From NCBI GenBank assembly GCA_947501845.1, contig CANMXP010000021.1, forward strand, positions 1 through 64,000: 64,000 bases of DNA, written 5' to 3'. The DNA comes from an uncultured Flavobacteriaceae bacterium. GTDB taxonomy: Bacteria > Bacteroidota > Bacteroidia > Flavobacteriales > Flavobacteriaceae. Both the position numbers and the translations under genes were made by a program. Within the stretch, counting starts at the first letter, position 1; each line of letters starts with the position of its first letter. Under the pieces are notes generated by a model, which ran no database searches, had not been told where the DNA came from, and worked only from the letters and a program-made list of their open reading frames with translations. Below, one piece after another: positions 26,299 through 57,167 of this stretch.

Positions 26299-27063
26299 TT
26301 AAAACCCAATAGCAGCACCTCCATCAACGGGCAACAGTACCCCGTTGACATAAGATGAGGCATCAGATCCTAAATAAATAGCAGCGTTGCCAATAGCTTC
26401 TGGTTCCCCAAATTCAATAAACGGAATTCTATTCAAAATTTTAGTTTTTCTGTCTATGTCATTGTCTAACGCTTTATGCAGCATTTTAGACTCTATCCAT
26501 CCTGGAGCTATCGCGTTAACCCGAATACCATCAAGAGCATAATCGGCTAAAAGACCTCTCATTAAACCCAACATTCCTGTTTTAGCTGTTGTGTAAGCCA
26601 CTACTTGCGTCATTGCCATGATACCCGTCATAGAGCTAATCATAATTATTGCTCCCTTAATTCCATTTCTCTTCATAGATGCCATGACTTCTCTACTCAA
26701 AGTAAAAGAACTCAATAGATGGGTTTGAATGACGTTAAGAAAGGCCTCATCTGAGGTTTCAGATACATGTGCCTTGAGGTGAATTCCAGCATTATTTATT
26801 AGAATATGAATGGGACCGTGTTCTTTTTCAATCCTAGTGATTAATTCTTTAATTCCAGCTTGATTTGTTATATCGAAAACATAGTATAATGAATTAATTC
26901 CTAAAGTTTCACAAGCATTTTGTAATGTCGTTTCTGTTCGTCCTAAAATAACAACTTTAGCACCTGCTTCAATATAGGCTTTCGCGATTCCTAAACCAAT
27001 TCCCGAACCGCCGCCTGTAATGATAGCCGTTTTATTTGAAAGGCTAAACTGTGATATGTTCAT
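26299..27063 (-). CDS. SDR family NAD(P)-dependent oxidoreductase
   Basis: This 254-residue classical short-chain dehydrogenase has TGGGSGIG (about 16-23, nucleotide binding), NNAG (about 92-95), and the catalytic Ser in MISSMTG (about 145) with Y-T-T-A-K (Tyr/Lys about 158-162). It ends PVDGGAAIGF. It most resembles gluconate 5-dehydrogenase or 2-deoxy-D-gluconate 3-dehydrogenase types. It is the last gene of the MFS-RraA-UxaA operon (9-bp gap), so it probably oxidises or reduces a sugar acid or its keto derivative. The exact substrate is unknown. Confidence 0.92.
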   Translation of the reverse strand: MNISQFSLSNKTAIITGGGSGIGLGIAKAYIEAGAKVVILGRTETTLQNACETLGINSLYYVFDITNQAGIKELITRIEKEHGPIHILINNAGIHLKAHVSETSDEAFLNVIQTHLLSSFTLSREVMASMKRNGIKGAIIMISSMTGIMAMTQVVAYTTAKTGMLGLMRGLLADYALDGIRVNAIAPGWIESKMLHKALDNDIDRKTKILNRIPFIEFGEPEAIGNAAIYLGSDASSYVNGVLLPVDGGAAIGF

Positions 27064-27072
27064 TTTATTAAA

Positions 27073-28263
27073 TTAACTGGGTAAACAACCTGGTTCCAGA
27101 TTATTAAACCTTTTATAAGCCAACTGAAATTCTTGATGTAGCAATGCTTCCGACTTAGTCGGGCTACCATTAGCTACCGAAATAATACATGCTTCTAAGC
27201 TTTTAGATACTTCATTTATAGTCTCCTTCCCTTCTAAAATTGTTCCTGCATTAATATCCATATCTTCTTCAAGATTTTTATATGTTTGCGGGTTTGCACA
27301 TATTTTTATTACTGGAGAAACAGCAGAACCAACAACAGAACCTCGTCCTGTTGAAAATAAAACAACATGTGCTCCACACGCTATTAATTCGGTTATTTCT
27401 ACATTATCATTTGCGTTTGGCCATCCAAACATTGGTATGCCGTCTGGCACGACATCTAGTAAATATAATCCGTTAGTAGGTGGCTGTATAGCAGGCTTAA
27501 TAATACCATTAATTTGAGCGTTTCCACTTTTACTATAGGCGCCCATAGATTTTTCTTCAATGGTTGTTAATCCTCCTCTAGCATTGCCATTTGAAAAGCT
27601 TCCAAATCCCATGTTTTGATAATATGTTTTTGCCTTTTCTACTGTTTTTATAAGTTGTTCCGCAAGTTCAGGACTCGCAGCCCTTTCTGCCATAATATGT
27701 TCACAACCTATAAGCTCTCCTGTTTCTTCAAAAATAGCTGTTACCCCTCGCTTTAGTAAACTATCAAATGTGCTTCCTATTACTGGATTTGCTGTAATTC
27801 CACTAGTACCATCAGATCCACCGCAAATAGTACCCACCACCAACTCGTTCTCCAACATTGGCACAGTAGGCATTTTATTAAGGGTAATTAACTTCTCTTT
27901 AATCCATTTTTTTCCTATTTCAATAGACGTTTTACTTCCCTTTGATTCCTGAATGATAATGGTTTTAACTGCACGACCTGAATCTTGAACGGCACCGTAC
28001 AAACCTTCTATATCTAAATTTTCGCACCCTAATGAAACAATAAGCACAGCTCCAACATTAGTATGTGTACAAAGAGCTTTCATCATAGAATTAGCATAAG
28101 TATTTGGAGCGCAACCATGAAAACCTATAACGTGTACACCTTTATCTCTATACTTATATTGAATTTCACGAGCTACATGATGCGCACACTCTACTGTATA
28201 AGCTACTAATATGTAATTTCGAATACCTTTTTTACCGTTTTTTCTTAAATATCCCTTTAGCAT
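27073..28263 (-). CDS. UxaA family lyase, large subunit (altronate dehydratase/SuyB-like)
   Basis: This 396-residue protein corresponds to the C-terminal catalytic part of UxaA/GarD dehydratases. Signatures: FHGCAPNTYAN (about 49), SLGCENLD (about 78), TICGGSDGTSGITANPVIG (about 147-165), EETGELIGCEH (about 177-187) and FSTGRGSVVGSAVSPVIK (about 305). These enzymes use a divalent metal or iron to remove water (altronate, galactarate) or sulfite (3-sulfolactate, SuyB) from a hydroxy acid. The N-terminal SAF domain is a separate upstream gene overlapping by 1 bp (TAATG), as in SuyAB and some split dehydratases. With the RraA and SDR neighbours I favour sugar-acid dehydration, but SuyB-like activity is not excluded. 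Confidence 0.88.
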   Translation of the reverse strand: MLKGYLRKNGKKGIRNYILVAYTVECAHHVAREIQYKYRDKGVHVIGFHGCAPNTYANSMMKALCTHTNVGAVLIVSLGCENLDIEGLYGAVQDSGRAVKTIIIQESKGSKTSIEIGKKWIKEKLITLNKMPTVPMLENELVVGTICGGSDGTSGITANPVIGSTFDSLLKRGVTAIFEETGELIGCEHIMAERAASPELAEQLIKTVEKAKTYYQNMGFGSFSNGNARGGLTTIEEKSMGAYSKSGNAQINGIIKPAIQPPTNGLYLLDVVPDGIPMFGWPNANDNVEITELIACGAHVVLFSTGRGSVVGSAVSPVIKICANPQTYKNLEEDMDINAGTILEGKETINEVSKSLEACIISVANGSPTKSEALLHQEFQLAYKRFNNLEPGCLPS

Positions 28264-28544
28264 TATTTTGTAAATTGTTTCATATAGAGGCTTTCCATAT
28301 TTTGGGTATGTACATGGCTCCCTTTTGATATATTTTTGGTAGCACTTCCTATAGGTACACCATACTTAATGATAGGTTCTCCTTTTTCAATAGTTTTCAA
28401 AGCTATTTTATGGCCAAAATAAATAGTATCTATTAATTGAATATCATGACCATTAAAATGAATAATTTCTCTCATTTTAAGATCCGATAAAGCAACACAT
28501 ACATTATCTAATTTATGCAAACAAACAACTTTATTACTACTCAT
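28263..28544 (-). CDS. UxaA family SAF-domain small subunit (SuyA-like)
   Basis: This 93-residue SAF domain is equivalent to the N-terminal domain of altronate dehydratase or to SuyA. The C-terminal part KYGVPIGSATKNISKGSHVHTQNM is the characteristic block that helps bind the acid group of the substrate. It overlaps the large-subunit gene by 1 bp and lies 2 bp after the RraA gene, so the two lyase subunits should be made in equal amounts. Activity depends on its partner. Confidence 0.9.
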   Translation of the reverse strand: MSSNKVVCLHKLDNVCVALSDLKMREIIHFNGHDIQLIDTIYFGHKIALKTIEKGEPIIKYGVPIGSATKNISKGSHVHTQNMESLYMKQFTK

Positions 28545-28546
28545 AA

Positions 28547-29239
28547 CTACATAATACCAAATGTTTCAAATGCTTCTAGAGTACTCATACCGTTTTCTAA
28601 TGCTTTTTGAACTGTCTTTTCTCCCCTTGCTTTTTCTAAAGCTAACGCGAAAGCTTCCTCTACGGCATCAGCTGGAACTATAATTACACCATCTCGATCC
28701 CCATAAACAACATCTCCAGGAGACACAGAAATACCTCCAAATTCAATAGGCAATCCATAATCTATAACTTTACCACGAGGCCCTTGGTCTTGCGCAAAAG
28801 TACCTGCTGAAAAAGTCGGAAAATTAAGTCTTAGTATTTCATTAGTGTCTCTTGAAAACCCATTAACCACGGCTCCTGAAGACTCTAACTTCGTAGCCCT
28901 TGTACTCATTAATCCTCCCCACAATGCATAATTGTATGAAGAACCAGAACAAATATAAACCTCATTTTTTTTAAGACTGTCTAAAGCTTCAAACATAATA
29001 CCAAATGGTTTTGCCATAATTGGGTTCGCTGTCCCTTCCAATTTTTCGGCAAATACATCTGCTTCCAGTACAGTCATTGCTCTACCTATTACTACCATAT
29101 CTGGGTTTAAAGGTTTTATTTGTTGAGGCAAAAATTGGTGTAAAAGCCCCATTTTATCCATAACATCACCAACTAAAGCGACAAAAAGTTCATGCTTTGC
29201 TAGTTGAAATAATTCATCATCGTCTTTCCAAAGATTCAT
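28547..29239 (-). CDS. RraA-like aldolase family protein
   Basis: This 230-residue protein of the RraA/HMG aldolase fold has the metal- and substrate-binding blocks WGGLMSTRATKLESSGAVVNG (about 107-128) followed by FSRDT (the Arg-Asp pair), and PGDVVYGDRDGVIIVP (about 185-200). Family members cleave 4-hydroxy-2-oxo acids into pyruvate plus an aldehyde or keto acid. Database names such as demethylmenaquinone methyltransferase or RNase E inhibitor are not supported here. Placed before a split dehydratase, it would fit cleavage of the 2-keto-3-deoxy acid made by the lyase. Substrate is inferred. Confidence 0.85.
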   Translation of the reverse strand: MNLWKDDDELFQLAKHELFVALVGDVMDKMGLLHQFLPQQIKPLNPDMVVIGRAMTVLEADVFAEKLEGTANPIMAKPFGIMFEALDSLKKNEVYICSGSSYNYALWGGLMSTRATKLESSGAVVNGFSRDTNEILRLNFPTFSAGTFAQDQGPRGKVIDYGLPIEFGGISVSPGDVVYGDRDGVIIVPADAVEEAFALALEKARGEKTVQKALENGMSTLEAFETFGIM

Positions 29240-29262
29240 ATATAAATATAGTTTATTAAAAT

Positions 29263-30690
29263 CTAACTTTCTTTTAAATCATGTCTTAACCATGAACGCT
29301 CTATTTCTTCAATAGTACGCCCTTTAGTTTCTGGCATTAAAAATTTAGCTACTAGGAACAATAAAATTAATTCTGCTGCGAAAAAGAAATATATGGTTCC
29401 TTTTGGAGTTGCCGCTTCTATTACTGGAAAAACCTGAGCTATCAAAGCACTGGTAACCCAAATACAAACGGTTGCTAAAGCTATCGCCTTGCCTCTAACT
29501 TGATTAGGGAAAATTTCTGAGATTACCACAAATTTAATAGGTCCAATGGCACAGGCAAAAAAGGCTACAAAGGCATTTATAGCAATAACAATTGGCCAAC
29601 CTGTAATATCATTCATGAACATAAAACCAATAACTATATGAGAGAAAAATGCACCTATTGCACCTACTGTTAGTAGCTTTTTTCTTCCTGAAGAATCTAC
29701 AAAACCCAATGCAAAAATTGTTGCCACGAAATTAACTATAGCTATTGAAGCAAACCCACCTAAAGAGCTCCCTAAATTGAAGCCTGCACTTTCAAATATC
29801 TGCGGGCCATAATAAAATACCACAGATACACCACAAGCTTCTGAAAGTACACAAAGAAGTACTGCTAAAATTAATGGTCTTTTTAAGCACTTACCGAACA
29901 AATCGGAAAATCTCACCTGACCTTCATCTTTCATAGTTTCTTCAATTTCCTGTCTAACTTCTTTTGCTTTCTTACTGCCGTTTATTCTTGTTAAAATAAC
30001 CTCTGCTACTTCACCTTTATTTTTTTTAACTAACCACCTTGGGCTTTCTGGAATAAAACACACACACACTAAAAACAATACACCAGGAATAGCTTCTGCC
30101 ATAAACATAGCACGCCAATTTTCATCCACAGCAAATGATTTCAAAAAAGGAGAAATAGATGTTGCTTTGGCATTAGATTCGGCAAAACTAAAAATGCCCC
30201 AATTAGCAAATACGCACATTATTATACCTATTGTAATGGTTAACTGAAAAAGAGTAACCATTCTTCCTCTTATCTTTTCTGGTGAAACTTCAGAAATGTA
30301 TAGCGGACATACCATAGTGGCAGCTCCAATACCTAAACCACCAATGAGTCTTGCTATTATTAAGTCAACAGCACTTATAGCTAACCCACACCAAGTTGCT
30401 GATATAAAAATTAAAACGGCAGTAATCATTAACGTTTTTTTACGCCCGTATGAATCGGATAGAAGCCCTGCAATTCCAGACCCTATAGCACACCCCCAAA
30501 GCACACAACTTACGTAAAACCCTAATTGTGAATTAGAAAAGTTGAACTGTTCTACTACCTGAGAATTTGTCCCCGATACAACCACAGCATCATACCCAAA
30601 CAATAACCCTCCACTGGCAGCTACAATACAAATGAACCATAAATATAAAGTCGATTTTTTGTTCTGGACTGACAATGTGTTTTGACTCAT
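29263..30690 (-). CDS. MFS sugar porter family transporter
   Basis: This is a twelve-span inner-membrane proton symporter of the sugar porter family. With the preferred start at 30690 ([19 protein letters not shown]) it has 475 residues; the frame extends 16 codons upstream without conservation. Signatures: [15 protein letters not shown] in span 1, [13 protein letters not shown] (loop 2-3), [29 protein letters not shown], a long central loop with [22 protein letters not shown], and the C-terminal [12 protein letters not shown]. It leads the operon that encodes the RraA aldolase, the split lyase and the SDR. It should import the sugar or sugar acid that they degrade. Confidence 0.93.
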
Positions 30691-30796
30691 ATTCAGTTTA
30701 CAATTACACGGTTGGTTATTTTTCAATAGTTTTATCAAAAACTGTTAATAGTATTTACTATCCAAAGTTTAGCTATATTTTGACAATCATATAATA

Positions 30797-31872: not shown

Positions 31873-33075
31873 ATGACTCAAAAAAATAATATAATTACCA
31901 ACTCTGTACTTCTTATACTTGTAATAACATCACTTTTAAATTGTAAAAACCCTAAAACTAAAGTTCTCAATAGTACAAGCTTTGCTGATGATATAAAAAA
32001 ACTTGCCGTTATAAATGACTTACAAGTTTTAGAACACGGTAATGCTGCTATTGCTTTTTCAGGTAGCTACCAAGCTAAAGTATTTACAAGCTCTTCTAAT
32101 GGTTTGAATGGCAAATCTTATGGTTACATTAATTGGAAATTGTTTGATGAAGGCCTCCATGAACATACCATGTCTAAATTAGGTGGAGAGAGCAGATTGT
32201 GGTTTGGTCCCGAGTTTGGTAAATATTCTGTTTTTTTTGATGAAGGGATAAAACGAGAGATTGAAAACATGAAAATTTCTCCCGATTTAGACTCTAAAAA
32301 GTTTTCTTTGATTGAAAAGGACAAATTATCTGCAACATATGGAGCCGATTTACAAATAAGAAATAATTACGGTTATATTTTTAATATTAATGCCAAGCGA
32401 AAAATTTCACTTTTAACGAAATCTCAAATTGAAAACGATTTAAATATTGTTTTAAACAACCATACTTCTTTTGTTGGGTTTAGTGCTGAAACAAATGTGG
32501 AAAATTTAGGAGAACAATGGCGTAAAGAAAATGGTCTTCTATGCATTTGGGAATTAGGATGTATGCTTACGAGTCCTGATAATCGAGTGATTATACCTAT
32601 TCAAAAAGAAACCGATTCGGTTACTGGGTACTTTACTCCTGTAACTTCAGACAGGTTAGTTACAAAAGATCGTGTCGTTTTTTATAAAGCTGATGCAGAT
32701 GGGGTAAATAAGATTGGTGTAAAATCAGATTTATCTAAAAATATCATGGGTAGTTATTCTGAAAAAAACAATCTTTTGAATATTGTAAAATTCACTTTTA
32801 AAAACGATTCTTTGTATGTAAACTCATTACCTAAAAATGATACGCCTTACGATGGCGATGTAACTAATATTTTTAATGGTGAAGTTAATGAACCCCTAGA
32901 TAGAAACTGGCCATTTTATGAGTTTGAAACATCATCTAGCGCAAAAGAACTTAATACAAATGAAACGATGTACCATAAACATACAACTTATCATTTTGAA
33001 GGTTCTTTTGAAGATCTGAATGCGATTAGTCTAGAAGTGCTCGGTGTTAATTTGAGTCATATTCCTAAGTTTTAA
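31873..33075 (+). CDS. Lipoprotein with galactose-mutarotase-like fold (DUF6786/DUF4380 type)
   Basis: This 400-residue lipoprotein (Cys24 in LLNCKN) has a beta-sandwich composition similar to aldose-1-epimerase-like carbohydrate proteins: GGESRLWFGPEFGKYSVFFDEG at about 98-120, NNHTSFVGFSAETNVENLG (about 195-213), and WELGCMLTSPDNRVIIPI (about 225-245). I think it belongs to the uncharacterised DUF6786 group often placed near sugar-oxidation genes, but this is from memory of the pattern. A role as a periplasmic mutarotase or sugar-binding protein is inferred. It follows the AraC gene by 93 bp and converges with the quinoprotein gene. Confidence 0.65.
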   Translation: MTQKNNIITNSVLLILVITSLLNCKNPKTKVLNSTSFADDIKKLAVINDLQVLEHGNAAIAFSGSYQAKVFTSSSNGLNGKSYGYINWKLFDEGLHEHTMSKLGGESRLWFGPEFGKYSVFFDEGIKREIENMKISPDLDSKKFSLIEKDKLSATYGADLQIRNNYGYIFNINAKRKISLLTKSQIENDLNIVLNNHTSFVGFSAETNVENLGEQWRKENGLLCIWELGCMLTSPDNRVIIPIQKETDSVTGYFTPVTSDRLVTKDRVVFYKADADGVNKIGVKSDLSKNIMGSYSEKNNLLNIVKFTFKNDSLYVNSLPKNDTPYDGDVTNIFNGEVNEPLDRNWPFYEFETSSSAKELNTNETMYHKHTTYHFEGSFEDLNAISLEVLGVNLSHIPKF

Positions 33076-33166: not shown

Positions 33167-36034
33167 CTATAAAATAGGTTTTATTCTTATATTTTTCCAT
33201 CCCATAGTAAATTGCTTTTTACCTTTCATTCCATGTATTTGTAAGGCTATAAAACCTTTGGGGTGTGTTTTATATACTTCCTCATTAATAACATCATCTA
33301 TTTGATGTCCATTCAAAAAAGTTTGTATCCTTGGCCCTTTTGCGACTATACGGATTTTGTTCCACCCTTCAGAAATATAAAAGTCATGACTGTTTTTTAC
33401 TTTTTCTTCCGAAGAAAGGAAGCCTATTCCCATAGCTTCACCATAAATTAAACCTGTTGTCACCTTGCCTTCTCCCATTTTACGTCTAATCTCAAGCTGC
33501 GGTCCCCATACGCGCCCAGCTCTAAAAAGACTATGATCTTTCTCTGTAACAGGCCGTGCCGAAGATCTAAATTGTATGCCTTGATTCGTAATATCATCTA
33601 CCATAACATCACACTCAAATTCGAAATCATCAAATTCCTGCAATGAACATAGGAAAGAATTTTGGCTTTCTGGAGTTGTTCTTCCTATAATAGCTCCGTT
33701 TTCAACTCTATACTTATGTGATCCATTCATATGCACCCAACCATCTAGCGTTTTACCATCGAAAAGTGATATCCAGCCTTGATTACCTTGATTATCCTTT
33801 TTTCCTTGTAAATCTGCCTTAGTGGCATTCAAATAGTTATCAGGGAGTGCAAACGCCATAACATGATCACTAGATGGCGTACCGTTTTTACCACCTCCAC
33901 CAGCAACAATAACAACATATTGTTTACCATCTTTCATATAAATAGTCGGCGTTGCATACCCCCCAGCAGGGAGCTTATACTCCCATAATAATTTTCCTCG
34001 GCTTTTTTCAAAAGCTCTAATCTTTTCATCGGCCGTAGCTGCAATAAAAATAACACCACCAGAAGTAGCTACTGCTCCTCCATAATTCATTGTACCCGTA
34101 TTACGTATGCCTTGTTTTACAAGTTCAGGATATTCACCTAAAGGTTTTCTCCAAACAAAATTACCCGTTGTTAAATCTATCCCATTTAAAGTTCCCCAAG
34201 GTGGAGCAACTCCAGGATATCCTTGGTGGTCTAAAAAATTTGCATAACCCGCATGGTGGTATCTTACCTCTCCTTCATTAGTTGTAATATCATCTTTTAC
34301 AACCTTATCACTAGACAAATAATCAACCAATAAAACAAATTCTTCTTTCTTAAACTGAGGAAACGCAGGCATGATATTTCGTCCATTTTTAATAACCTCG
34401 GTAAGTTCCTCCTTTGATTTTTCTAGATTTAACAAACTAGGATATACAGGTGGTGTACCTTGCCTTTCAATACCATGACAAGATGCACAATTTTGCACAT
34501 ACAACTGACGACCTTGTTGAAGTTTTGATAGCTTCTTTTTATTCTTTGAACCTTTTATTTTTTTCATCTTTAGAATAGAAGCACCATTATTAGAATTCAC
34601 ATACAAAATATTAGAGTAAGGATCAAAAGACCCGCCTTGCCATTCAACACCTCCTAGTGTACCAGGAGCAGAAATAGTGCCTATTTCTGAAGGCGGTTCG
34701 TATAAAACTCCAGGTATTAACTTTGAAAACTTTTTAAGTGCAGCCGCTCTTGCTTCAGGAGACACATTTGTTAAATTAGTCTCAGTCATTCCCAAATGGG
34801 TTAATGGTAGTGGTTTAATAGGTATTGGCTGTGTAGGAGAAGCCTCCTCTCCTTCAAGAGTTGAAACAGGTACTTCCATTTCTTCTACAGGAAAAATTGG
34901 TTCTCCTGTTTCACGATCTAAAACAAAGGTAAGTCCCATTTTTGTTAATTGTACAACGGCATCCTTTTGCTTCCCTTCATCCCTTATGGATACTAATATG
35001 GGGGCAGATGGATTATCATAATCCCATAAATCATGGTGTACGGTTTGATAATGCCAAACACGCTCCCCCGTTTCAGCATTTAAAGCTAACACACAATTAC
35101 CAAATAAGTTTTGTCCTTTTCTATGACCTCCATAGAAATCGTATGCTGGTGAGCCTGTTGCACAAAACACCCAGCCTCTTTTTTCATCCAAAGTAAACCC
35201 TCCCCAGGCATTGGCCCCTCCATAAGTTTCTCCTTCTACAAACTCCCAAGTGTCATAACCAAACTCGCCTTCTTTTGGTATGGTGTGAAATATCCATTTG
35301 AATTGCCCAGTAACAGCATCAAAGGCTCTAATATGGCCTGGTGTAGATTTATAGCCTTCTGGAACTCTAGATGCCACTATTAATGTATTTTTATATACAA
35401 TTCCAGGCGATGTAACTTCAATGGAAGCTTTACCTAATTCCATATCCAAATGTTCTCGCAAATCAATAAAACCTTTGCCATTTGAGCCAAAAGATTCTAT
35501 AAGTTCTCCCGTTTTTGCATTAATTGCATAGACTCTATTTTTAACATAATGGAATATGCGACGGTCTGTACCATCTTCTGATTGCCAATAAGTAACCCCT
35601 CGACTTCTACCTCTAAAAACCTTTCTGTCTTTATTATATTTTGAAGATTCGAAAACCCAAGCTCCTTTACCTGTAGTGGCATCCAAAGCAATAGCTTTTA
35701 AAGTTGATGTAGAAAAATATAATAAACCATCAATCATAATGGGGTTACACTGCATGGATGAGCGCTCACTTGCATCTCCTGTACGATATTGCCAGGCAAG
35801 TTCTAATTTATGAACATTGGCTGCATGAATTTGAGATAACTCTGCAAACTGATTTCCTTTTTTATCACCTCGGTATACATTCCAGTCTACATAATTTGTT
35901 TTATGTATCGAATCTGTTTTGTGTGCAACATTACTATTATGCTTTGGCTTTTCTTTTTTTTCAAAACAACCTACCATAAAAAGAATTGGTAATATAACTA
36001 GGCACCTTGCAATTATATAATACAACTTTGACAT
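33167..36034 (-). CDS. PQQ-type quinoprotein dehydrogenase with inserted cytochrome c and C-terminal DUF1080
   Basis: With the preferred start at 36034 (MSKLYYIIARCLV) it has 955 residues and a lipobox MVGC (Cys23). Residues about 45-500 form a PQQ-dependent beta-propeller (WNVYRGDKKGNQFAELSQIH, YWQSEDGTDRRIFHYV, GSPAYDFYGGHRKGQNLFGN). A class I cytochrome c domain with heme motif CASCH is inserted at about 500-585. The last propeller blades follow (LNGIDLTTGNFVWRKPLGE to VVIVAGGGGKNG). The C-terminal 200 residues are a DUF1080/3-keto-disaccharide hydrolase-like lectin domain (SLFDGKTLDGWVH). It would oxidise a sugar in the periplasm and pass electrons through its own heme. It is flanked by a second AraC gene. 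Confidence 0.88.
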   Translation of the reverse strand: MSKLYYIIARCLVILPILFMVGCFEKKEKPKHNSNVAHKTDSIHKTNYVDWNVYRGDKKGNQFAELSQIHAANVHKLELAWQYRTGDASERSSMQCNPIMIDGLLYFSTSTLKAIALDATTGKGAWVFESSKYNKDRKVFRGRSRGVTYWQSEDGTDRRIFHYVKNRVYAINAKTGELIESFGSNGKGFIDLREHLDMELGKASIEVTSPGIVYKNTLIVASRVPEGYKSTPGHIRAFDAVTGQFKWIFHTIPKEGEFGYDTWEFVEGETYGGANAWGGFTLDEKRGWVFCATGSPAYDFYGGHRKGQNLFGNCVLALNAETGERVWHYQTVHHDLWDYDNPSAPILVSIRDEGKQKDAVVQLTKMGLTFVLDRETGEPIFPVEEMEVPVSTLEGEEASPTQPIPIKPLPLTHLGMTETNLTNVSPEARAAALKKFSKLIPGVLYEPPSEIGTISAPGTLGGVEWQGGSFDPYSNILYVNSNNGASILKMKKIKGSKNKKKLSKLQQGRQLYVQNCASCHGIERQGTPPVYPSLLNLEKSKEELTEVIKNGRNIMPAFPQFKKEEFVLLVDYLSSDKVVKDDITTNEGEVRYHHAGYANFLDHQGYPGVAPPWGTLNGIDLTTGNFVWRKPLGEYPELVKQGIRNTGTMNYGGAVATSGGVIFIAATADEKIRAFEKSRGKLLWEYKLPAGGYATPTIYMKDGKQYVVIVAGGGGKNGTPSSDHVMAFALPDNYLNATKADLQGKKDNQGNQGWISLFDGKTLDGWVHMNGSHKYRVENGAIIGRTTPESQNSFLCSLQEFDDFEFECDVMVDDITNQGIQFRSSARPVTEKDHSLFRAGRVWGPQLEIRRKMGEGKVTTGLIYGEAMGIGFLSSEEKVKNSHDFYISEGWNKIRIVAKGPRIQTFLNGHQIDDVINEEVYKTHPKGFIALQIHGMKGKKQFTMGWKNIRIKPIL

Positions 36035-36274
36035 ATAAACAATATGATTTTGACACATAAAACTGTGAATTTTAATTCAACCCTACAGGAAATAGTTTCG
36101 CTATTTAAATACAAAAATAATTCAAATACCTAGAAGAAAAAGGACTGTCTTTTAGCCAAAATAGACTTTATTATATCATAAAATCTTCTATTTATTAAAT
36201 TCAATGATAAATTAGTATCTTTCAAGACACAATTAGCTAAAACTTCGCTGCCTCTTAAAAATTCGCTATACTAA

Positions 36275-37129
36275 ATGAAATCAGCCTTACAAAAATCGCC
36301 CATACCAAAAAGTCAGGTCTATGTAGTTGAAGTACTAAAACAGCCTTTTTTTGATCCTAATTGGCATTTTCATTCAGAATATCAGCTTTTTATTGTTTTA
36401 AAAGGAAATGGGACACGATTCATTGGTGACAACATAGAACAGTATAAAGAAGGAAGTGTCACCTTTACTGGTCCTAATTTACCTCACCTTTGGCGTAGTG
36501 ATTTCGAAACCCCACAAGATTGGTCTGAAGGCATTGTTGTATATTTTCATGAAGATTTTATAAGCAACAATTTTTTAAATAAAGTAGAATTCATAAAATT
36601 AAAACAATTTTTAAAGCTAAGTTTACGCGGAATATCAGTTAAAGGCAAAACATTAGAAGCTGTAAAAAAAATGCTTTTAAATCTTCCATATTTAGAAGGC
36701 TTTGATGGTGTTTTAGAATTACTAAATATATTAAACTATCTTTCTAAAAGTACTGAAATAGAAACTCTGGCCAGCGTCGGTTATACCAATTCGTTAAAAG
36801 AAGGAGATTCAGAACGAATGAATAACGTTTATACCTATATTATAAAACACTTTAAACGAAGAATTGTTCTTTCTGAGTTGGCAGAATTAACAAATATGAC
36901 TCCAACTTCGTTTAGTCGTTATTTTAAAATGCATTCTAATAAAACATTCTCTAGTTTTGTTAGTGAAATAAGAATTGGTCATGCTTGTAAACTGCTTATC
37001 GAAAAAAAAATGAATGCTTCCCAAGCATGTTATGCTAGTGGGTTTAGAACCTTGTCTAATTTCAATAGGCAGTTTAAATATATAACTAAAAGGTCTCCAA
37101 TAGAATATAAAAAAGAATATGGTGCTTAG
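36275..37129 (+). CDS. AraC family transcriptional regulator (cupin sensor)
   Basis: This 284-residue paralogue of the regulator at 30910 has the same layout. The cupin sensor contains DPNWHFHSEYQLFIVLKGNGTRFIGDNIEQYKEGSVTFTGPNLPHLW (about 28-75). The HTH pair is at about 183-283 (RRIVLSELAELTNMTPTSFSRYFKMHS, then MNASQACYASGFRTLSNFNRQFKYIT). It is divergent from the quinoprotein fusion gene and upstream of the ThuA-domain gene, and so probably regulates one or both. The two AraC genes flanking one metabolic block suggest duplication and division of targets. Confidence 0.93.
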   Translation: MKSALQKSPIPKSQVYVVEVLKQPFFDPNWHFHSEYQLFIVLKGNGTRFIGDNIEQYKEGSVTFTGPNLPHLWRSDFETPQDWSEGIVVYFHEDFISNNFLNKVEFIKLKQFLKLSLRGISVKGKTLEAVKKMLLNLPYLEGFDGVLELLNILNYLSKSTEIETLASVGYTNSLKEGDSERMNNVYTYIIKHFKRRIVLSELAELTNMTPTSFSRYFKMHSNKTFSSFVSEIRIGHACKLLIEKKMNASQACYASGFRTLSNFNRQFKYITKRSPIEYKKEYGA

Positions 37130-39337: not shown

Positions 39338-40996
39338 CTATTTCTTTTCTAACAAAACGATACTAAACTCGGAATCGATCAATACTTTTCCATTTTTAAC
39401 CTTTACTTTCTGATTTGAATATGCATCGCGAAGCACTTCATTGTTTTTAAACAATGCTGGTACCTCTAGTATTTTTTCTCCCTTTGGTAAACCTAACCCA
39501 ACTACCACTAAATCGTTATAATCGTCTTTTAAAAAACGTCTATAAAACACATAGGGTTCTCGGTTTATCATTTGATGAATTCCTACGCCTATGGCTGGAT
39601 GATCTGCCCTAAACTTTCCTAGTTTTTGCCAATGCAATAATATTTTTTTTGTTTTTACATCATTTTTAATAGCATCCCAATTCATAAAAGATCGTAAAGT
39701 GGCATCTCCTTCTGTACCTTCAATAATTAAAGGCCGTGCAGACTCGTCTCCATAGTATACTTGAGAAGTTCCTGGTGCGAGCAATAGCTTTGTTGCGGTA
39801 TCAAAAGGTTTTTCACGTGACGCATCATAAGGTTTCCCGTCATCGTGTGATGTTAAATAATTTAGGGTACCAAACCCTTTTAAATCGGTTGTTAAGAAAT
39901 TTGAATAACTACTAAATAGTTTTTCATAATCTTGTTGAGCAGCATTCCATTTAAACTGAAAATTAATTAGACTTTGAAATGCATTATTAAAATAATTAAC
40001 TTTTTTATCTCCAAAATCATAGTATTGCCCTGTGTTTATTCCATAATTATAAATTTCTCCAACTAAATAAAAGTTATTATCATCCAATACTTTATCGGGA
40101 TTATTTTTTTTCCATTCAGCAAAGGCATAATCACACTCGGCCTTAAATTCTTGCCACACATATTCTTCGGTATGTTTTACAGTATCGCAACGGTAGCCAT
40201 CAATTCCAAATTCGGTAATATAATCGGTTAACCATTTTATAATATAAAACCTAGGTGCCCTAGGATATCCTGTTCTATTAAAAAAATCATTTAATTCGGC
40301 TACTTCTTGCTCATAACGTCCCTCTTTTTTCCATTTTTCTATAAGTTGAGCTGGTAAGTCAACAGATTCATTGACTTCTGTTTTTATATCTGGCAGGTTA
40401 TCAACAAGTGTACAAGTTATGGTAGCATCATATGCTTTATAGTTACATTTAGGATGTGTTCTAACCCAATTTTTAGGCCAAACAGGATCTTTATCTGTAA
40501 TAGGCCCTGTATGATTGATTACGGCATCCAATACAATTCTAATACCTTTTTTATGTGCTGCGTCAACTAATTCGTGCAGATCTTCTTTGATACCAAAATT
40601 GGGGTCTAAAGCAGTCCAATCATTAGCCCAATACCCATGAAAACCATAGGTTAATCCAGTTCCTTCATCTGTGCCCCCATGGATTTGTTCAACAATTGGT
40701 GTCAACCAAATAGCATTGATACCTAAATTAGTAAAATACCCTGCTTTAATTTTTTGAGTTATTCCCTTTATATCACCTCCTTTAAAACCACGAAGCTTAC
40801 CTGTTTTTGCTGTTCTATTAAAATTAATATCATTAGAAAAATCTGCATTATTAAAACGATCTGTAAGTAAAAAATATAGATTCGCGGCTTCCCATATAAA
40901 TGGTGTTTCTTCGTTTGTTTTAGCCGTTTTATTTTTTTGTATGCCACACGAATTAAGACATACTAAACAGTATAGTATTAATAAAAAGCATCTCAT
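39338..40996 (-). CDS. GH13 alpha-amylase lipoprotein (MalS-like)
   Basis: This 552-residue alpha-glucan hydrolase has a lipobox NSC (Cys17), so it is periplasmic or outer-membrane anchored. GH13 regions: NLYFLLTDRFNNAD, AIWLTPI, DAVINH (region I, about 155), GIDGYRCDT (region II, nucleophile Asp about 273), LVGEIYN (region III, acid Glu about 318) and LTSHDD (region IV, about 390). The pattern YGFHGYWANDW and the overall order look like MalS-type amylases. It is the last gene of the maltodextrin operon, immediately adjacent to the preceding GH13 stop, and likely trims imported maltooligosaccharides. Confidence 0.93.
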   Translation of the reverse strand: MRCFLLILYCLVCLNSCGIQKNKTAKTNEETPFIWEAANLYFLLTDRFNNADFSNDINFNRTAKTGKLRGFKGGDIKGITQKIKAGYFTNLGINAIWLTPIVEQIHGGTDEGTGLTYGFHGYWANDWTALDPNFGIKEDLHELVDAAHKKGIRIVLDAVINHTGPITDKDPVWPKNWVRTHPKCNYKAYDATITCTLVDNLPDIKTEVNESVDLPAQLIEKWKKEGRYEQEVAELNDFFNRTGYPRAPRFYIIKWLTDYITEFGIDGYRCDTVKHTEEYVWQEFKAECDYAFAEWKKNNPDKVLDDNNFYLVGEIYNYGINTGQYYDFGDKKVNYFNNAFQSLINFQFKWNAAQQDYEKLFSSYSNFLTTDLKGFGTLNYLTSHDDGKPYDASREKPFDTATKLLLAPGTSQVYYGDESARPLIIEGTEGDATLRSFMNWDAIKNDVKTKKILLHWQKLGKFRADHPAIGVGIHQMINREPYVFYRRFLKDDYNDLVVVGLGLPKGEKILEVPALFKNNEVLRDAYSNQKVKVKNGKVLIDSEFSIVLLEKK

Positions 40997-42457
40997 TTAT
41001 AAATCAATTAAAATTTTATAGGCCCATGAGGCTAATGTTACACCTTCGTTATTAAAAAGAATATCTTTATTAGCCATATAATCTAAAAAAATGCCTTCAT
41101 CAGTCATTTTAAAAGTTTGTGGCTCACTAGAAAAATTAGCTATAAAGATTATTTTTTTACCATCTTTACTTCTAATATATTTTAAAACATTTTCATTATC
41201 TGTTTCAAAAATAAGGTAAGAGGCACTTTGTTTGCCTCCATTTAAAGCTACATTTTTATTTTTAAGCGCTCCCAGTTTTTCTAACACATTCCACATATTG
41301 CCTTTCTCTTTTGGAATGGAATCTTTTTCGAAAAATTTTAAACGGTGATTTAAATTATATTCCTGTCCAGAATAAATTAATGGCATACCAGGAATTATAT
41401 AACTAAACACCGTCATAAGCTCCGAGGCATCTCCCATACGCTCTTGTATGGTACCATTCCATGAATTCTCATCGTGGTTTGTCACAAAATTCATAAGAAT
41501 ATCATCTTTTTCATAATCTGATACTACTTTTGTTGCATAGGTATCCCAATCTTTTAAAGACTTTTCTTCTTTAGCCATATCATTTAATAAATGATGCCCA
41601 TCCCAGGCATAAGCCATATCAAATAAATTAGCTTTTAAGAGCTCTGGCTCCCAAGCTTCTGCCAACATAAAAATATCTTTTTTCGAACGTAATTGAGGAA
41701 TAGCCTCTTGCCAAAAATCTATTGGCACAGAACCTGCTACATCACATCTAAATCCATCGATGCCTTCTTCTGTAATCCAATAACTCATATCGGCAATCAT
41801 AGTTTTACGCATCTCTTTGTTATCATAATTTAAATCGGCAACATCTGTCCAATCTGTTTCTTCAGGGTGTATAATATCCCCTTGGTCATTATGAGTATAA
41901 TAATCCTGATGACTTTTTAACCACTCATGATCCCAACCTGTATGGTTAGCTACCCAATCCAGAATGACATACATACCATTTTTATGAGCTTCATTTACTA
42001 AGGCTCTAAAATCTGAAATAGTACCGAACTCTGGGTTTATTTTTGTAAAATCTGAAATCGCATAGTAACTACCTAGCATTTTTTTCCTTTTTGCTTCATC
42101 TTTAATTAAGCTTGCAAATTCACCTCCTGTAGCTTTTCGCTTGGTTTGCGATATTGGAAATACGGGCATGAGCCAAATAATTTTTACTCCTAATTGCTTT
42201 AATTCTGGAATATCTTTGGTAAATGCATTAAAAGTCCCTTCTGATGAATATTGACGAATATTAGCTTCGTAAATAATTCCTTGTTCTAAAATAGCATCAT
42301 TAATTGGTTCTATTTCAACTAAAGTTGCTACTTCCTCCTCTTCATTGGTTGATTCTACTTTAGCATCTTCAGTCTTTGATTCTGGGGACAATGTTTTTTC
42401 ATTTTTACAAGAAAAAATAAACATTAACAATGCTACTACGATTATTAGCTTTTTCAT
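40997..42457 (-). CDS. GH13 alpha-amylase family lipoprotein
   Basis: This 486-residue protein has a lipobox FSC (Cys17) and an acidic linker (to about 50). The GH13 barrel carries IWLMPVFPIS, DWVANH (region I, about 165), GIDGFRCDVAG (region II, nucleophile Asp about 237), MLAEAWE (region III, Glu about 268) and FVTNHDENSW (region IV, about 325-334), then a small C-terminal beta domain. The short length and EAW motif recall maltogenic or oligosaccharide-specific amylases of Bacteroidota. It is 3 bp after the SusA-like gene and abuts the next GH13, so all three are co-translated. Confidence 0.92.
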   Translation of the reverse strand: MKKLIIVVALLMFIFSCKNEKTLSPESKTEDAKVESTNEEEEVATLVEIEPINDAILEQGIIYEANIRQYSSEGTFNAFTKDIPELKQLGVKIIWLMPVFPISQTKRKATGGEFASLIKDEAKRKKMLGSYYAISDFTKINPEFGTISDFRALVNEAHKNGMYVILDWVANHTGWDHEWLKSHQDYYTHNDQGDIIHPEETDWTDVADLNYDNKEMRKTMIADMSYWITEEGIDGFRCDVAGSVPIDFWQEAIPQLRSKKDIFMLAEAWEPELLKANLFDMAYAWDGHHLLNDMAKEEKSLKDWDTYATKVVSDYEKDDILMNFVTNHDENSWNGTIQERMGDASELMTVFSYIIPGMPLIYSGQEYNLNHRLKFFEKDSIPKEKGNMWNVLEKLGALKNKNVALNGGKQSASYLIFETDNENVLKYIRSKDGKKIIFIANFSSEPQTFKMTDEGIFLDYMANKDILFNNEGVTLASWAYKILIDL

Positions 42458-42460
42458 TTT

Positions 42461-44440
42461 TTACAATTTGGTAGTTAAAATAATGCTTCCTTTGTTTTCC
42501 AGCTTCAAATTATCATGCCATGTTACAGTTTCCCCTGAAATAATATTTTTAAGTGATTTTCCTTGTAAATTAATCTCTTCGAATCTGGTCAAGTCTAAAT
42601 CAACTGCCTCTTCATTCTTATTCAGAATATGAACAACAGTTTCATTTTCTGTCATCCTAAATAATACATAAACACTATTTTTAGGCGAAAAATGAACTGT
42701 TTTCCCTTCATGAATTGCCTTACTGGATTTTCTAAAATTCAAAAGTGTTTTTAGATATGATTGTATCTCGTTTTGGGTTTTTGTTAAACCAACACCTGTA
42801 AATGCATTAACTGTATCAGCTTCCCAACCACCAGGAAAATCTGTTCGTATTAAACCGTGATCTCCAGGTTTTTCAAAATCGTCCATCACTATTTCTGTAC
42901 CATAATATATTTGTACAATCCTAGGCAGCGTAAGCAAATAACTTAGTGCTATTTTTGTATTAACAATATCGCCTTTTAATTGTGTAAAAATGCGACTCAT
43001 ATCATGATTGTCTGGAAAAATCATAATATCTTTTGGTTTCACATAATGAAAATCGTTAGCTAATCCTTCATACATTTTCACTAAGCCTTTATCCCAAGAT
43101 TCGGTTTCATTTAAAGCTTGTACAATGATATGTTGCATGGCAAAATCCATAGGCGATTTTAAATTAGAATCGTAACCATCTTTATTATTTGCACCATCTT
43201 GCCAATAACCAATAAGCAATGGGTTATAGCTCCATTCTTCGCCAACGATACTAAAATTTGGATATTCGTTCATTATAGCTCCTGCCCAGTTACTCATAAA
43301 ATCTTTATCGGGATACGGATATGTATCTTGTCGAATACCTCCCAACTCAACAGTTTCTATCCACCAAATACTATTTTGAATAATGTACTGAGCCATAAAT
43401 GGATTGCGTTGATTTAAATCTGGCATTCCAGATACAAACCAACCATTTACCATACCTTCTTTATCTTTTTCTGATGCATATAGATCTTGATTAGAGGTAC
43501 GTCTATGATTAGAGCTTATGGTCTTTTCATTTGTCCAAGAGTCACTATGTGCTTCATAAACTTCTTGATAATTTACCCAATCTTTAAATGGCAAATCCTT
43601 CATCCACCAATGCTCTAAGCCACAATGATTTGCTACTTGATCCATGACTAGCTTCATACCTTTTTCTGCCATTTTAGCGGCTAAAGTTTTGTATTCATCT
43701 AGCGTTCCAAAACGTGGATCTATTTCGTATAGATCTGTAATAGCATAACCGTGGTAGGAACCACGAGGCATATTGTTGGTTAAAAGCGGACACGACCAAA
43801 CTGCTGTAAAGCCTAAATCTTCAATATAATCTAAATGGTTTGTTATACCTGTTATATCTCCGCCATGTCTGGCATATCCATCTTTTCTGTTGATCGTTTT
43901 TTCATTTAAATTTTTGAACGTATCATTACCTGGATTTCCATTTGCAAAACGGTCTGGAGTAATTAAGTATATGGCATCAGAACTGTTAAAACCCATGTAG
44001 TCTTCTGCTGGTTTCTCTCTTGCTTTTAACTCATATGTATGTACTAAATCCTTTTCTCCTTCTTTTTTAAAAACAATATTAAATTTACCTGCTTTTGTAA
44101 TTTCAGAAATATTTAAATCTATAAAGAGGTAATTAGGACTATCGGCTTGGTGTACTTTTTTTATGGAAACGCCTTGATAGCTGATTTCGGGAGTTCTTTT
44201 TGAAATATTGGGATGATGTACCAAAAGCTGCAAGGTTTTTGATTTAAAACCTACCCACCAATTCATGGGTTCAACACGACGAATATCTTTTTTATTAATT
44301 GTTAAAGGGGCTTTATTTACTATTTCTTGCTCAATCTTATTTTGGTTTTCACAAGATAAATTTAAAGCAAATACACACAGTAACCCCATCAAAAGTGATG
44401 GCTTTACATTTTTTCGTTTTTTTAGGTTACATCCCTTCAT
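42461..44440 (-). CDS. susA: GH13 neopullulanase/cyclomaltodextrinase (SusA-like)
   Basis: With the preferred start at 44440 (MKGCNLKKRKNVKPSLLMG) it has 659 residues; a start 42 bp earlier would overlap the GH97 gene. A lipoprotein signal ends LSC (about Cys31). An N-terminal Ig-like cyclomaltodextrinase domain (about 45-140) precedes the GH13 barrel: IYLITPDRFANGNPGND, RHGGDITGI, AVWSCPL, MDQVANH (region I), GGIRQDTYPYPDKDF (region II), IVGEEW (region III) and FPDNHDMSR (region IV). This is the layout of B. thetaiotaomicron SusA, which hydrolyses imported starch oligosaccharides in the periplasm. The next gene upstream, GH97, is 7 bp away. Confidence 0.93.
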   Translation of the reverse strand: MKGCNLKKRKNVKPSLLMGLLCVFALNLSCENQNKIEQEIVNKAPLTINKKDIRRVEPMNWWVGFKSKTLQLLVHHPNISKRTPEISYQGVSIKKVHQADSPNYLFIDLNISEITKAGKFNIVFKKEGEKDLVHTYELKAREKPAEDYMGFNSSDAIYLITPDRFANGNPGNDTFKNLNEKTINRKDGYARHGGDITGITNHLDYIEDLGFTAVWSCPLLTNNMPRGSYHGYAITDLYEIDPRFGTLDEYKTLAAKMAEKGMKLVMDQVANHCGLEHWWMKDLPFKDWVNYQEVYEAHSDSWTNEKTISSNHRRTSNQDLYASEKDKEGMVNGWFVSGMPDLNQRNPFMAQYIIQNSIWWIETVELGGIRQDTYPYPDKDFMSNWAGAIMNEYPNFSIVGEEWSYNPLLIGYWQDGANNKDGYDSNLKSPMDFAMQHIIVQALNETESWDKGLVKMYEGLANDFHYVKPKDIMIFPDNHDMSRIFTQLKGDIVNTKIALSYLLTLPRIVQIYYGTEIVMDDFEKPGDHGLIRTDFPGGWEADTVNAFTGVGLTKTQNEIQSYLKTLLNFRKSSKAIHEGKTVHFSPKNSVYVLFRMTENETVVHILNKNEEAVDLDLTRFEEINLQGKSLKNIISGETVTWHDNLKLENKGSIILTTKL

Positions 44441-44447
44441 AATATTT

Positions 44448-46583
<2,136 letters not shown>

Positions 46584-46609
46584 TTATAAATACACCTTAT
46601 GTTGTTCAA

Positions 46610-48919: not shown

Positions 48920-49587
48920 TATTTTTTAATCTTTTGCTGAGTTAACCTTGAAAAAAAATCATAAGGCATCTCAGTTAAATTGTTAAAATTGAAATCGGCT
49001 TCACTGAGTGTATTTTTATCTCCAATGCCCACCGAAATCATGTTTGCTTTATTCGCTGCCTCTATACCTGCTATAGCATCTTCAAAAACAATACAGTTTT
49101 CTGGTTTTAGATTAAGTTTTTTGGCTCCAATTAAAAAGACCTCTGGATCTGGCTTTGCTTTTGATACACTATTGCCATCAACAATGCCTGCAAACCTTTC
49201 CAACAATCCCACTTGTTTTAAAATTAGTGGTGCATTTTTACTAGCAGATCCCAATGCATACCTAATACTCTGACTATCTAGTTCATTAAGAAGATCATGG
49301 ACTCCTGGTAGGATTTCGTCAACATTCATTTTTCTTATGTACTCCAGATAATCCTCATTTTTACTTATTAAAGCACTTTGCTTGCTTTCATCGGTCAATG
49401 TTACATTGCCAATATTTAATAGTATTTCTAAAGAACGTACACGACTAACACCTTTAAGCAATTCGTTATGCGCTTCTGTAAATTCAATATGTAAATCGTT
49501 AGCAAGGTTTTTCCATGCTAGAAAATGATACTTTGCAGTATCTACAATAACCCCGTCAAGGTCGAATATAACTCCTATTGTACTCAT
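48919..49587 (-). CDS. pgmB: Beta-phosphoglucomutase
   Basis: This 222-residue HAD-superfamily enzyme has motif I GVIFDLDGVIVDTAKYHFLAWK (Asp pair at 9 and 11; the second Asp is acid/base), motif II LGSASKNAP (about 117), motif III Lys in SKAKPDPEVF (about 146) and motif IV FEDAIAGIEAA (about 168). The cap domain contains the substrate loop LLKGVSRVRSLEILL. It interconverts beta-glucose-1-phosphate and glucose-6-phosphate, the step after GH65 phosphorolysis. The 1-bp overlap with GH65 and the 7-bp gap to the MFS gene show tight operon coupling. Confidence 0.95.
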   Translation of the reverse strand: MSTIGVIFDLDGVIVDTAKYHFLAWKNLANDLHIEFTEAHNELLKGVSRVRSLEILLNIGNVTLTDESKQSALISKNEDYLEYIRKMNVDEILPGVHDLLNELDSQSIRYALGSASKNAPLILKQVGLLERFAGIVDGNSVSKAKPDPEVFLIGAKKLNLKPENCIVFEDAIAGIEAANKANMISVGIGDKNTLSEADFNFNNLTEMPYDFFSRLTQQKIKK

Positions 49588-49594
49588 TCTATTT

Positions 49595-50968: not shown

Positions 50969-51207
50969 AAATAGTATATTTAGATTAATACTATTTGATA
51001 AGCGGTTTATACCAATTTAACTATAAATAACGTATTTATTTTAGCACCATTTCCTTGTTTACAATTCTTCTTATAGCAAGGCTATTAAAATGAATCATTA
51101 GGTTCTGTAACTAAAACAACTTTGTTTTTGTTTACCATTTGATAATTACATCGGTATGCTTACCAAAACTTATGTGAGAAGTGAAAATATAAGTTCTGAT
51201 TTCGTGT

Positions 51208-51240
51208 CAAAGATATACAAAAGATTTTTATTCTTCCAAA
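51208..51240 (-). promoter_or_regulatory. Predicted promoter of the maltodextrin operon
   Basis: On the minus strand TTTG (51240-51237), 21 nt, then TATCTTTG (51215-51208) fits the Bacteroidota -33/-7 consensus. It lies just downstream of the lacI stop and about 240 bp before the MFS start, implying a long 5' leader with no obvious structure. No copy of the CGAAAACGTTTTCG operator is seen beside it. Confidence 0.4.
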
Positions 51241-51248
51241 TATATTTT

Positions 51249-52322: not shown

Positions 52323-52446
52323 TGGTGATAGTTTAATGGAAATCTCGAAGTTTTTAATGAACTTCATAAAGGTATCACATTATTTCCAATGCAAAAAACT
52401 ATATGTTTTTATCAAAAAACACACCAAATGCTGAAAAGTTGTTAAC

Positions 52447-52476
52447 ACGAAAACGTTTTCGTTACGAATTTCGTAA
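52447..52476. promoter_or_regulatory. LacI-type operator plus adjoining palindrome
   Basis: ACGAAAACGTTTTCGT (52447-52462) is a perfect 16-bp palindrome with the central CG of LacI-family operators. TTACGAA-T-TTCGTAA (52462-52476) is a second perfect inverted repeat sharing one base. Both lie between lacI and susC, upstream of the predicted susC -33. Confidence 0.75.
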
Positions 52477-52483
52477 TTCATAA

Positions 52484-52515
52484 TTGTTTCTTTACAATTT
52501 CTTTACATAGCTTTG
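52484..52515 (+). promoter_or_regulatory. Predicted susC promoter
   Basis: TTG (52484-52486), 21 nt, then TAGCTTTG (52508-52515) matches the Bacteroidota TTG-N(19-21)-TAnnTTTG pattern, 80 bp before the susC ATG. The tandem palindromes end 8 bp upstream of the TTG. Confidence 0.55.
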
Positions 52516-52594
52516 ATTTTGAGGAGTGAAAATATATTTAAACAAGCTAAACACATTAAACTAAACAAACTAACATTTAATTAGACAAAATTAC

Positions 52595-55540: not shown

Positions 55541-55550
55541 AAAAAGAACT

Positions 55551-57152: not shown

Positions 57153-57167
57153 TAAAAACTAATCAAA

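Follow-up and report, generated by a model that had tools for sequence, protein, structure and literature searches.

Several described systems share parts with the protein considered here. Type II quinohemoprotein alcohol dehydrogenases (ADHs; 1kb0 and 1yiq) combine a pyrroloquinoline quinone (PQQ) propeller and a c-type heme in one chain, with the heme domain following the propeller at about residues 590 to 650. LacABC of Caulobacter is a three-component C3 dehydrogenase encoded by separate genes and is of the flavin adenine dinucleotide (FAD) type; the C3-oxidizing glycoside dehydrogenases known to us use FAD or nicotinamide adenine dinucleotide. In the fungal protein CcPDH, the carbohydrate-binding module (CBM) presumably holds the glycan near the active site. 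Here we analyze a gene from a 64,000-nucleotide stretch of DNA of an uncultured Flavobacteriaceae bacterium (GCA_947501845.1, contig CANMXP010000021.1, positions 1 to 64,000; the window) that encodes a PQQ propeller, a cytochrome c and a DUF1080 domain in a single chain.

The domain order, the dehydrogenase family, the kept active-site residues, the DUF1080 subtype and the single clade formed by the fused proteins are all observed, and we give an even chance to the proposal built on them, namely, that the protein is exported, belongs to the membrane-glucose-dehydrogenase lineage and works as a quinohemoprotein sugar dehydrogenase with a glycan-holding DUF1080 tail. PQQ would be taken up from outside, PqqC not having been found in the genome. 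The substrate would be an aldose, or an oligosaccharide attacked at its reducing end, with oxidation most likely at C1, and PQQ would pass the electrons to the inserted c-type heme, from which they would enter the respiratory chain. The tail would most likely hold the glycan near the active site rather than cut it, a role that we propose because the QDHG and HPDA motifs are missing and by analogy with CcPDH.

Domain order and dehydrogenase family

The gene is a single open frame (Table 1) in which all four Pfam domains (PF01011, PF13442, PQQ_2 and PF06439) scored above their cutoffs, PF01011 matching residues 59 to 510 with an E value of 1.8e-189 (631.7 bits against a cutoff of 26.7) and PF06439 matching with an E value of 3.4e-34 (119 bits against a gathering cutoff of 26.8). 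Pfam thus bore out the order of PQQ propeller, cytochrome c and DUF1080 in one chain that had been proposed in an earlier annotation made from the letters alone (the sequence-only reading). That annotation also had the heme domain interrupting the propeller, and indeed, the CASCH motif at residues 524 to 528 falls between two propeller parts, while solved PQQ dehydrogenases align over about residues 54 to 746. A CxxCH heme site and a PQQ propeller in the same chain are what is expected of a quinohemoprotein dehydrogenase but, in contrast to the type II ADHs, the cytochrome (513 to 581) is not C-terminal to the propeller, which resumes and extends to about residue 740. The protein is a putative lipoprotein, its N-terminal hydrophobic stretch ending in LFMVGC with the cysteine at position 31; the alternative start at 36034 (MSKLYY...), used in the sequence-only reading, gives a cleaner-looking signal sequence. 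The fusion cannot be put down to an assembly error, since two further genomes of the genus have full-length relatives with 92% and 84% identity. Further fused relatives with 55 to 70% identity (best segment) were found in six metagenome-assembled genomes (MAGs; our loci L042-L046 and L050), the fusion in L046 being cut by its contig end.

A full-length AlphaFold2 model built from 29 aligned sequences was of moderate quality (predicted local distance difference test [pLDDT] of 79.3, predicted template modeling score [pTM] of 0.71), with pLDDT values below 50 at residues 1-5, 30-56, 752-759, 846-850 and 873-883. Residues 54 to 746 of the model matched PedH (6zcv; Z score of 36.9, root-mean-square deviation [rmsd] of 2.2 over 481 residues) and 1yiq (Z score of 36.6, rmsd of 2.7 over 491 residues), and the Z scores of 34 to 37 for the top structure matches of the propeller model correspond to the PQQ-dehydrogenase fold.

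A contig scan for the family returned at least 79 loci, and residue conservation was counted over 88 family open frames from these and other loci, with the short copies L006, L011 and L014-L018 omitted. CxxCH stands at the same place in 86 of the 88 frames, the exceptions being L050, in which the heme domain is gone, and L115, whose frame is truncated. Met 563, the likely axial ligand, is likewise kept in 86, and the inserted heme, as judged from these frames, is an ordinary, family-wide feature. L050 (8902-11454, in an Opitutales MAG) is a fused relative from which the inserted cytochrome has been lost completely.

In the quinohemoprotein ADHs 1yiq and 1kb0, the aligned counterparts of D343 and K373 are likewise Asp and Lys, and all 88 frames keep both residues, as they do N283, W345 and D346; Glu 234, which aligns with the Glu of GGAE in 1yiq, is present in 82. 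We take D343, K373 and E234 to be the catalytic Asp, the PQQ Lys and the calcium Glu, respectively, all three of which are expected of a quinohemoprotein and kept here. The PQQ- and calcium-binding residues on which the sequence-only reading leaned, checked for loss by alignment, were therefore retained (88/88 for D343 and K373, 82/88 for E234), and the propeller active site looks like a working one. The adjacent Cys pair of 1yiq and 1kb0 is absent from the window protein. The best NCBIfam match was TIGR03074, the membrane glucose dehydrogenase (GDH) family, at 493 bits, and the next two scored 233 and 222 bits; TIGR04528, the "empty" quinoproteins, matched at 233 bits, far under its cutoff of 650. 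PF07995, the six-blade PQQ fold of AA12/GSDH, was not among the 10 Pfam families matched at E values up to 1. As a family call, the predicted dehydrogenase assignment is secure.

Nature of the DUF1080 tail

The DUF1080 family comprises at least two motif types. HPDA and QDHG are both present in BT2157 (3osd), in the eliminase/hydratase entry 8rr2 and in the second domain of 4jqt, and the fused tails read LQ[IV]H (LQIHG in the window protein) with neither QDHG nor HPDA in 8 of 8 complete fused domains, so that the tail lacks the motif pair of the BT2157-type eliminases/hydratases. A tree of 95 domain rows brought the 8 fused tails together as one group (support of 100) and put them beside N-terminal domains of tandem DUF1080 proteins, within a 29-row clade (support of 97) from which all 28 QDHG rows are absent. 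Their sister group is supported at 87, and several long branches make distant placements in this tree unsafe; 4jqt is outside the tree, and the link to BT3469 rests on the first domain of 4jqt being the best solved match.

In an alignment to 4hxc, H942 falls on the QDHG His. In 3osd, this His has chain index 250 and should be His 275, because the numbering of the entry ends at 290 for 265 residues (250 + 25); by numbering, H942 is thus the equivalent of His 275 of the BT2157-type enzymes. The H275N variant of the Bacteroides thetaiotaomicron 3-keto-O-glycoside lyase, which is taken to be BT2157, is reported to be deficient in hydration (PMC13273386). Since H942 is kept but QDHG and HPDA are missing, the known DUF1080 chemistry may have been lost or altered in the tail, or may never have been there. 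Only part of the earlier suggestion of a 3-keto-glycoside-cleaving domain therefore survives: one His stands, while the tail groups with another subtype and cleavage is unproven.

The DUF1080 domain was also modeled alone from 9 sequences (pLDDT of 82.5). Its best solved match was the N-terminal domain of 4jqt/BT3469 (36% identity, Z score of 26.4, rmsd of 1.7 over 190 residues), and it matched BT2157 (3osd; Z score of 20.7, rmsd of 3.1 over 195 residues) and the binding module CBM66 (4azz; Z score of 17.9, rmsd of 2.3 over 156 residues), with glycoside hydrolase (GH) family GH16 enzymes next at Z scores of 15 to 16. A Thermogutta paper describes DUF1080 and CBM66 assignments as overlapping (PMC5673643). 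Large DUF1080 proteins of the sampled genomes were considered as heme fusions and rejected, no CxxCH being present in frames of at least 300 residues in seven stretches, one of which had only a short DUF1080 gene.

Rarity and origin of the fusion

In a propeller tree calculated without the inserted cytochrome (quick method, midpoint root), the nine fused proteins formed one clade with a Shimodaira-Hasegawa-like approximate likelihood ratio (SH-aLRT) support of 100. The clade spans Bacteroidota and Verrucomicrobiota, with the three rows of the latter diverging first and those of the former nested inside (supports of 96, 84 and 93), and the simplest reading would be a single fusion event followed by lateral spread. 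The fusion is found in 3 of 12 genomes of the genus, own included. A survey of 395 own-phylum genomes, in which at most two candidates per genome were scored, showed the enzyme in 57 genomes at 69 listed places, with the fused form only in the own genome; the places in genomes G219 and G381, which reach 764 to 766 of the query, were not part of this fusion check. Among 288 genomes of Verrucomicrobiota, the phylum of the L045 host, 13 had the enzyme (18 listed places) and only the L045 host had it fused. The DUF1080 tail is a rare add-on to a common enzyme, and the protein is an uncommon variant of a known enzyme kind. No PQQ-cytochrome-DUF1080 protein appeared among the titles and abstracts listed in our searches of an open-access library.

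Three candidates for further fusions were rejected. L202 and L205 (Verrucomicrobiota) have longer frames, neither of which contains DUF1080, and in L120, which had come up in the contig scan as a full-length match, a separate DUF1080 gene of 194 residues immediately precedes the PQQ gene on the same strand.

DUF1080 genes near unfused relatives

Neighborhoods of up to 19 kb were examined for 40 of the 68 unfused own-phylum places, from the best scoring downwards. Observed genes were counted with a custom profile and the background with Pfam counts (400 PF06439 matches in 149.3 Mb from 33 genomes). DUF1080 was nearby in 14 of the 40 places, 7 of these from one genus (g156). Within 1.1 kb, 8 places had it where 0.37 would be expected (4 of 19 genera; P = 0.00026 by simulation), at least 7 of the 8 being confirmed in the Pfam listing and 5 coming from one genus; within 9 kb, there were 14 against 1.82 expected (5 of 19 genera, P = 0.013). 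Glycan genes cluster anyway, and this excess was counted without another glycan gene as a control. In G240, which has the best-scoring unfused own-phylum relative (53%), a multi-domain DUF1080 gene lies about 1 kb from the enzyme gene. Among the 73 unfused loci of the contig scan, many of which have short flanks, six had a DUF1080 gene in the flanks (L062, L066, L105, L107, L114 and L120), next to the PQQ gene and on the same strand in four of them. In the Verrucomicrobiota sample, DUF1080 was within about 1.5 kb in none of the 14 examined of 17 unfused places, including that of G685, at 53% as close a relative as G240.

Fusions of DUF1080 with GSDH (PF07995), an unrelated PQQ fold, occur as well. 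L050 has a cytochrome-GSDH-DUF1080-ankyrin protein 5 kb downstream of its fused relative, and L156 (14171-17668) encodes a DUF1080-ThuA-GSDH-PKD protein with a cytochrome c gene and two SMP-30 genes beside it. Proteins of 1087-1169 residues with an N-terminal DUF1080 lie near the PQQ-cytochrome gene in L156 and, in similar form, in L160, L162, L166, L168 and L174. DUF1080 proteins of 633-655 residues adjoin the PQQ-cytochrome genes of L105, L107 and L114, those in L105 and L114 having FG-GAP repeats by Pfam. On contig 3 of the own genome, L126 (345000-364000) contains a tandem DUF1080 gene, another DUF1080 gene and two gluconate-2-dh3 (PF13618) subunits, and it resembles known 3-dehydrogenase and DUF1080 systems.

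PQQ supply and site of oxidation

PqqC alone stood for PQQ synthesis in our searches. None of the 6 genomes covered by a first search (the own genome and five others from its family) gave a match, and that search was positive in no control genome; a second search gave none in the 7 host genomes of L042-L046, L050 and L120, all of them MAGs, but returned PqqC in 2 of 5 acidobacterial hosts. PqqU-bearing Bacteroidota are reported to be without PQQ synthesis genes, and PQQ scavenging is described as common (PMC12124388). Of four annotated unfused neighborhoods, two (L120 and L156 but not L150 and L164) have SMP-30 lactone-hydrolase genes close to the enzyme, which fits C1 oxidation. Lineage and these lactonase genes thus favor oxidation at C1, while the DUF1080 partnership favors C3. 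RbsD/FucU was considered as a sign of C1 oxidation and set aside, since it was a weak match in one gene next to the L043 fusion and was found nowhere else among the loci searched.

Alternative readings of the protein

Several observations weigh against a sugar dehydrogenase with a glycan-holding tail. The TIGR03074 score of 493 bits is below the curated membership cutoff of 832.65, the L050 relative has lost the heme and kept the remainder, and SMP-30 was not found among the annotated genes beside the window gene or the other fused genes. The fold of the modeled tail does not decide between binding and catalysis, as BT2157 fits better than CBM66 and GH16 enzymes follow. In addition, H942, which a plain binding module would not need, is kept in 8 of 8 complete fused domains, and the occurrence of DUF1080 next to, or joined to, quinoproteins of two kinds suggests a common reaction path more than simple binding. 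The propeller might oxidize a glycoside at C3 and the DUF1080 domain eliminate or hydrate the resulting 3-keto-glycoside, making the chain a PQQ analogue of the FAD-dependent LacABC with DUF1080, which we consider decidedly unlikely. The retained His 942, the eight close DUF1080 genes among 40 unfused relatives (0.37 expected), the multi-domain gene about 1 kb from the G240 enzyme, and the GSDH fusions with cytochrome (L050) and ThuA (L156) would suit such a scheme, as would the proposal, from fitness and gene-neighbor data, that LacABC and DUF1080 are partners in Caulobacter and others (PMC9007349). Nevertheless, the tail is outside the enzyme subtype of known activity, the lineage is nearest to glucose dehydrogenases, and the genome has a separate gluconate-2-dh3/DUF1080 locus. 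Moreover, the examined unfused places of Verrucomicrobiota (0 of 14 within about 1.5 kb) do not show the pairing, the per-genus excess at 9 kb is weaker (5 of 19, P = 0.013), and a single genus supplies 5 of the 8 close cases, in a setting where glycan genes cluster. Less probable again is the boldest version, a single-chain oxidize-then-cleave machine in which a PQQ glycoside 3-dehydrogenase with heme is joined to its own cleaving domain, which would be a new DUF1080 catalytic subtype; on this view, quinoprotein-DUF1080 systems would have been assembled independently several times in Bacteroidota and Verrucomicrobiota.

The two domains could also do separate jobs on one tether, the propeller making aldonolactones and the DUF1080 domain acting on 3-keto-glycosides produced by an FAD-type dehydrogenase encoded elsewhere in the genome. 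The PF13618 and DUF1080 locus on contig 3 and the closeness of the tail fold to BT2157 speak for this arrangement, but the known enzyme-subtype motifs are missing from the tail and nothing in it gives a reason for the tether; we regard it as unlikely. That the propeller is no longer an enzyme but is apo, or a sensor or binding protein, seems very improbable. PqqC was not found in the genome, and a family of "empty" quinoproteins exists, with TIGR04528 matching at 233 bits, but this score is far below the cutoff of 650, the active-site residues D343 and K373 are invariant over 88 relatives, and PQQ scavenging is reported to be common (PMC12124388).

Genomic neighborhood

The conserved neighbors of the gene are listed in Table 1. 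Alpha-glucan genes are also kept beside the fusion in the two other fused genus genomes: both have GH13, and GH97 is present in the one for which the sequence examined extended far enough. Within the genus, all 3 fused genomes and none of the 9 unfused ones encode the full-length CBM-ThuA protein, the latter having at most the ThuA half; because the genes are adjacent, this co-occurrence may be one inheritance event. The sequence-only reading had set the gene among ThuA and sugar-acid genes, and the ThuA context holds better. The sugar-acid cluster was rejected as a component of the system, as its genes are not conserved neighbors: the block of short-chain dehydrogenase/reductase, UxaA/GarD-like dehydratase, RraA-like and major facilitator superfamily (MFS) sugar porter genes (window 26299-30738) is absent at this place in both other fused genomes of the genus. 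Of the 11 other genus genomes, only G008, a genome lacking the fusion, yielded a close dehydratase ortholog (77%), and G006 gave a more distant homolog (48%).

The alpha-glucan locus adjoining the fusion (window 39338-58298) comprises three GH13 genes, GH97, GH65, haloacid dehalogenase (HAD), MFS, LacI, SusC, SusD and SusE/F. The SusC and SusD genes, like the position of the relatives in the propeller tree, fit a source organism in Bacteroidota. A beta-helix protein with a type IX secretion tail (L121, 11509-13188) lies beside the G002 fusion and is not found in the window or in G010. For the more remote fusions (L042-L046 and L050), a selection of flanking genes was annotated and showed no obvious common theme, except that L044 has a tandem DUF1080 gene immediately upstream and L050 has the GSDH-DUF1080 protein.

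Table 1. Features of the fused gene and its conserved neighbors in the window
Feature	Coordinates	Strand	Remarks
Whole gene: PQQ dehydrogenase + cytochrome c + DUF1080	33167..36058	minus	single open frame, 963 residues
Putative lipoprotein signal MSKLYY...LFMVGC, residues 9-31	35966..36034	minus	read off translation
PQQ propeller, first part, residues 59-510 (E234, N283, W285, D343, K373)	34529..35884	minus	Pfam PF01011
Inserted cytochrome c, residues 513-581	34316..34522	minus	Pfam PF13442, E value 5.4e-14
CASCH heme motif, residues 524-528	34475-34489	minus	inside cytochrome c insertion
Likely axial Met 563	34370-34372	minus	kept in 86/88 relatives
PQQ propeller, last part, residues about 590-740	33839..34291	minus	PF13360 (PQQ_2) 622-716 and structure matches
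DUF1080 domain, residues 761-960	33179..33778	minus	Pfam PF06439 (3keto-disac_hyd)
H942 of DUF1080 domain	33233-33235	minus	
AraC-type regulator with cupin	36275..37129	plus	kept in both other fused genomes of the genus
CBM-like + ThuA protein, 635 residues	37371..39278	plus	conserved neighbor
DUF6786 protein	31873..33075	plus	conserved neighbor

Comparison with known systems

Among the NCBIfam dehydrogenase families, the membrane GDH family TIGR03074 (Escherichia coli Gcd type) scores best with the window protein (493 bits), and the two presumably share the HHDLWD stretch and the Lys. Unlike membrane GDH, the window protein has no N-terminal membrane domain beyond one signal-like helix, and it has an inserted heme and an added DUF1080 domain. 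It is similar to the type II quinohemoprotein ADHs in its propeller (Z score of about 36) and its single-chain heme, but its heme domain is inside the propeller and it is without their adjacent Cys pair. The same propeller with the same inserted cytochrome, but without the DUF1080 tail, makes up the unfused PQQ-cytochrome family of Bacteroidota, Verrucomicrobiota, Acidobacteriota and others. Of the solved structures, the N-terminal domain of the tandem DUF1080 protein BT3469 (PDB 4jqt) is nearest to the tail; BT3469 has no redox domain, and in it a second, QDHG-type domain follows. With BT2157 (3osd) and the eliminase/hydratase entries 8rr2, 9fbe and 8tda, the tail shares the Pfam family, the fold and the His of QDHG but not the QDHG and HPDA motifs.

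A heme, a PQQ dehydrogenase and a sugar-binding module are also described in one chain in CcPDH (AA8-AA12-CBM1; PMC6881789) and in the GSDH-cytochrome-CBM proteins of Teredinibacter (PMC12055684), which differ in their six-blade PQQ fold, in the b-heme of CcPDH and in their module families. The pairing of periplasmic sugar oxidation with DUF1080 is, in turn, described for LacABC of Caulobacter (PMC9007349). If a DUF1080-PQQ partnership were true, PQQ would be a third cofactor for the C3-oxidation pathway, testable in a self-contained protein. On the plainer reading as a sugar dehydrogenase with a glycan-holding tail, the protein would show that DUF1080 is not always an enzyme and would be a bacterial counterpart of CcPDH on a different fold, which could serve in sugar electrodes.

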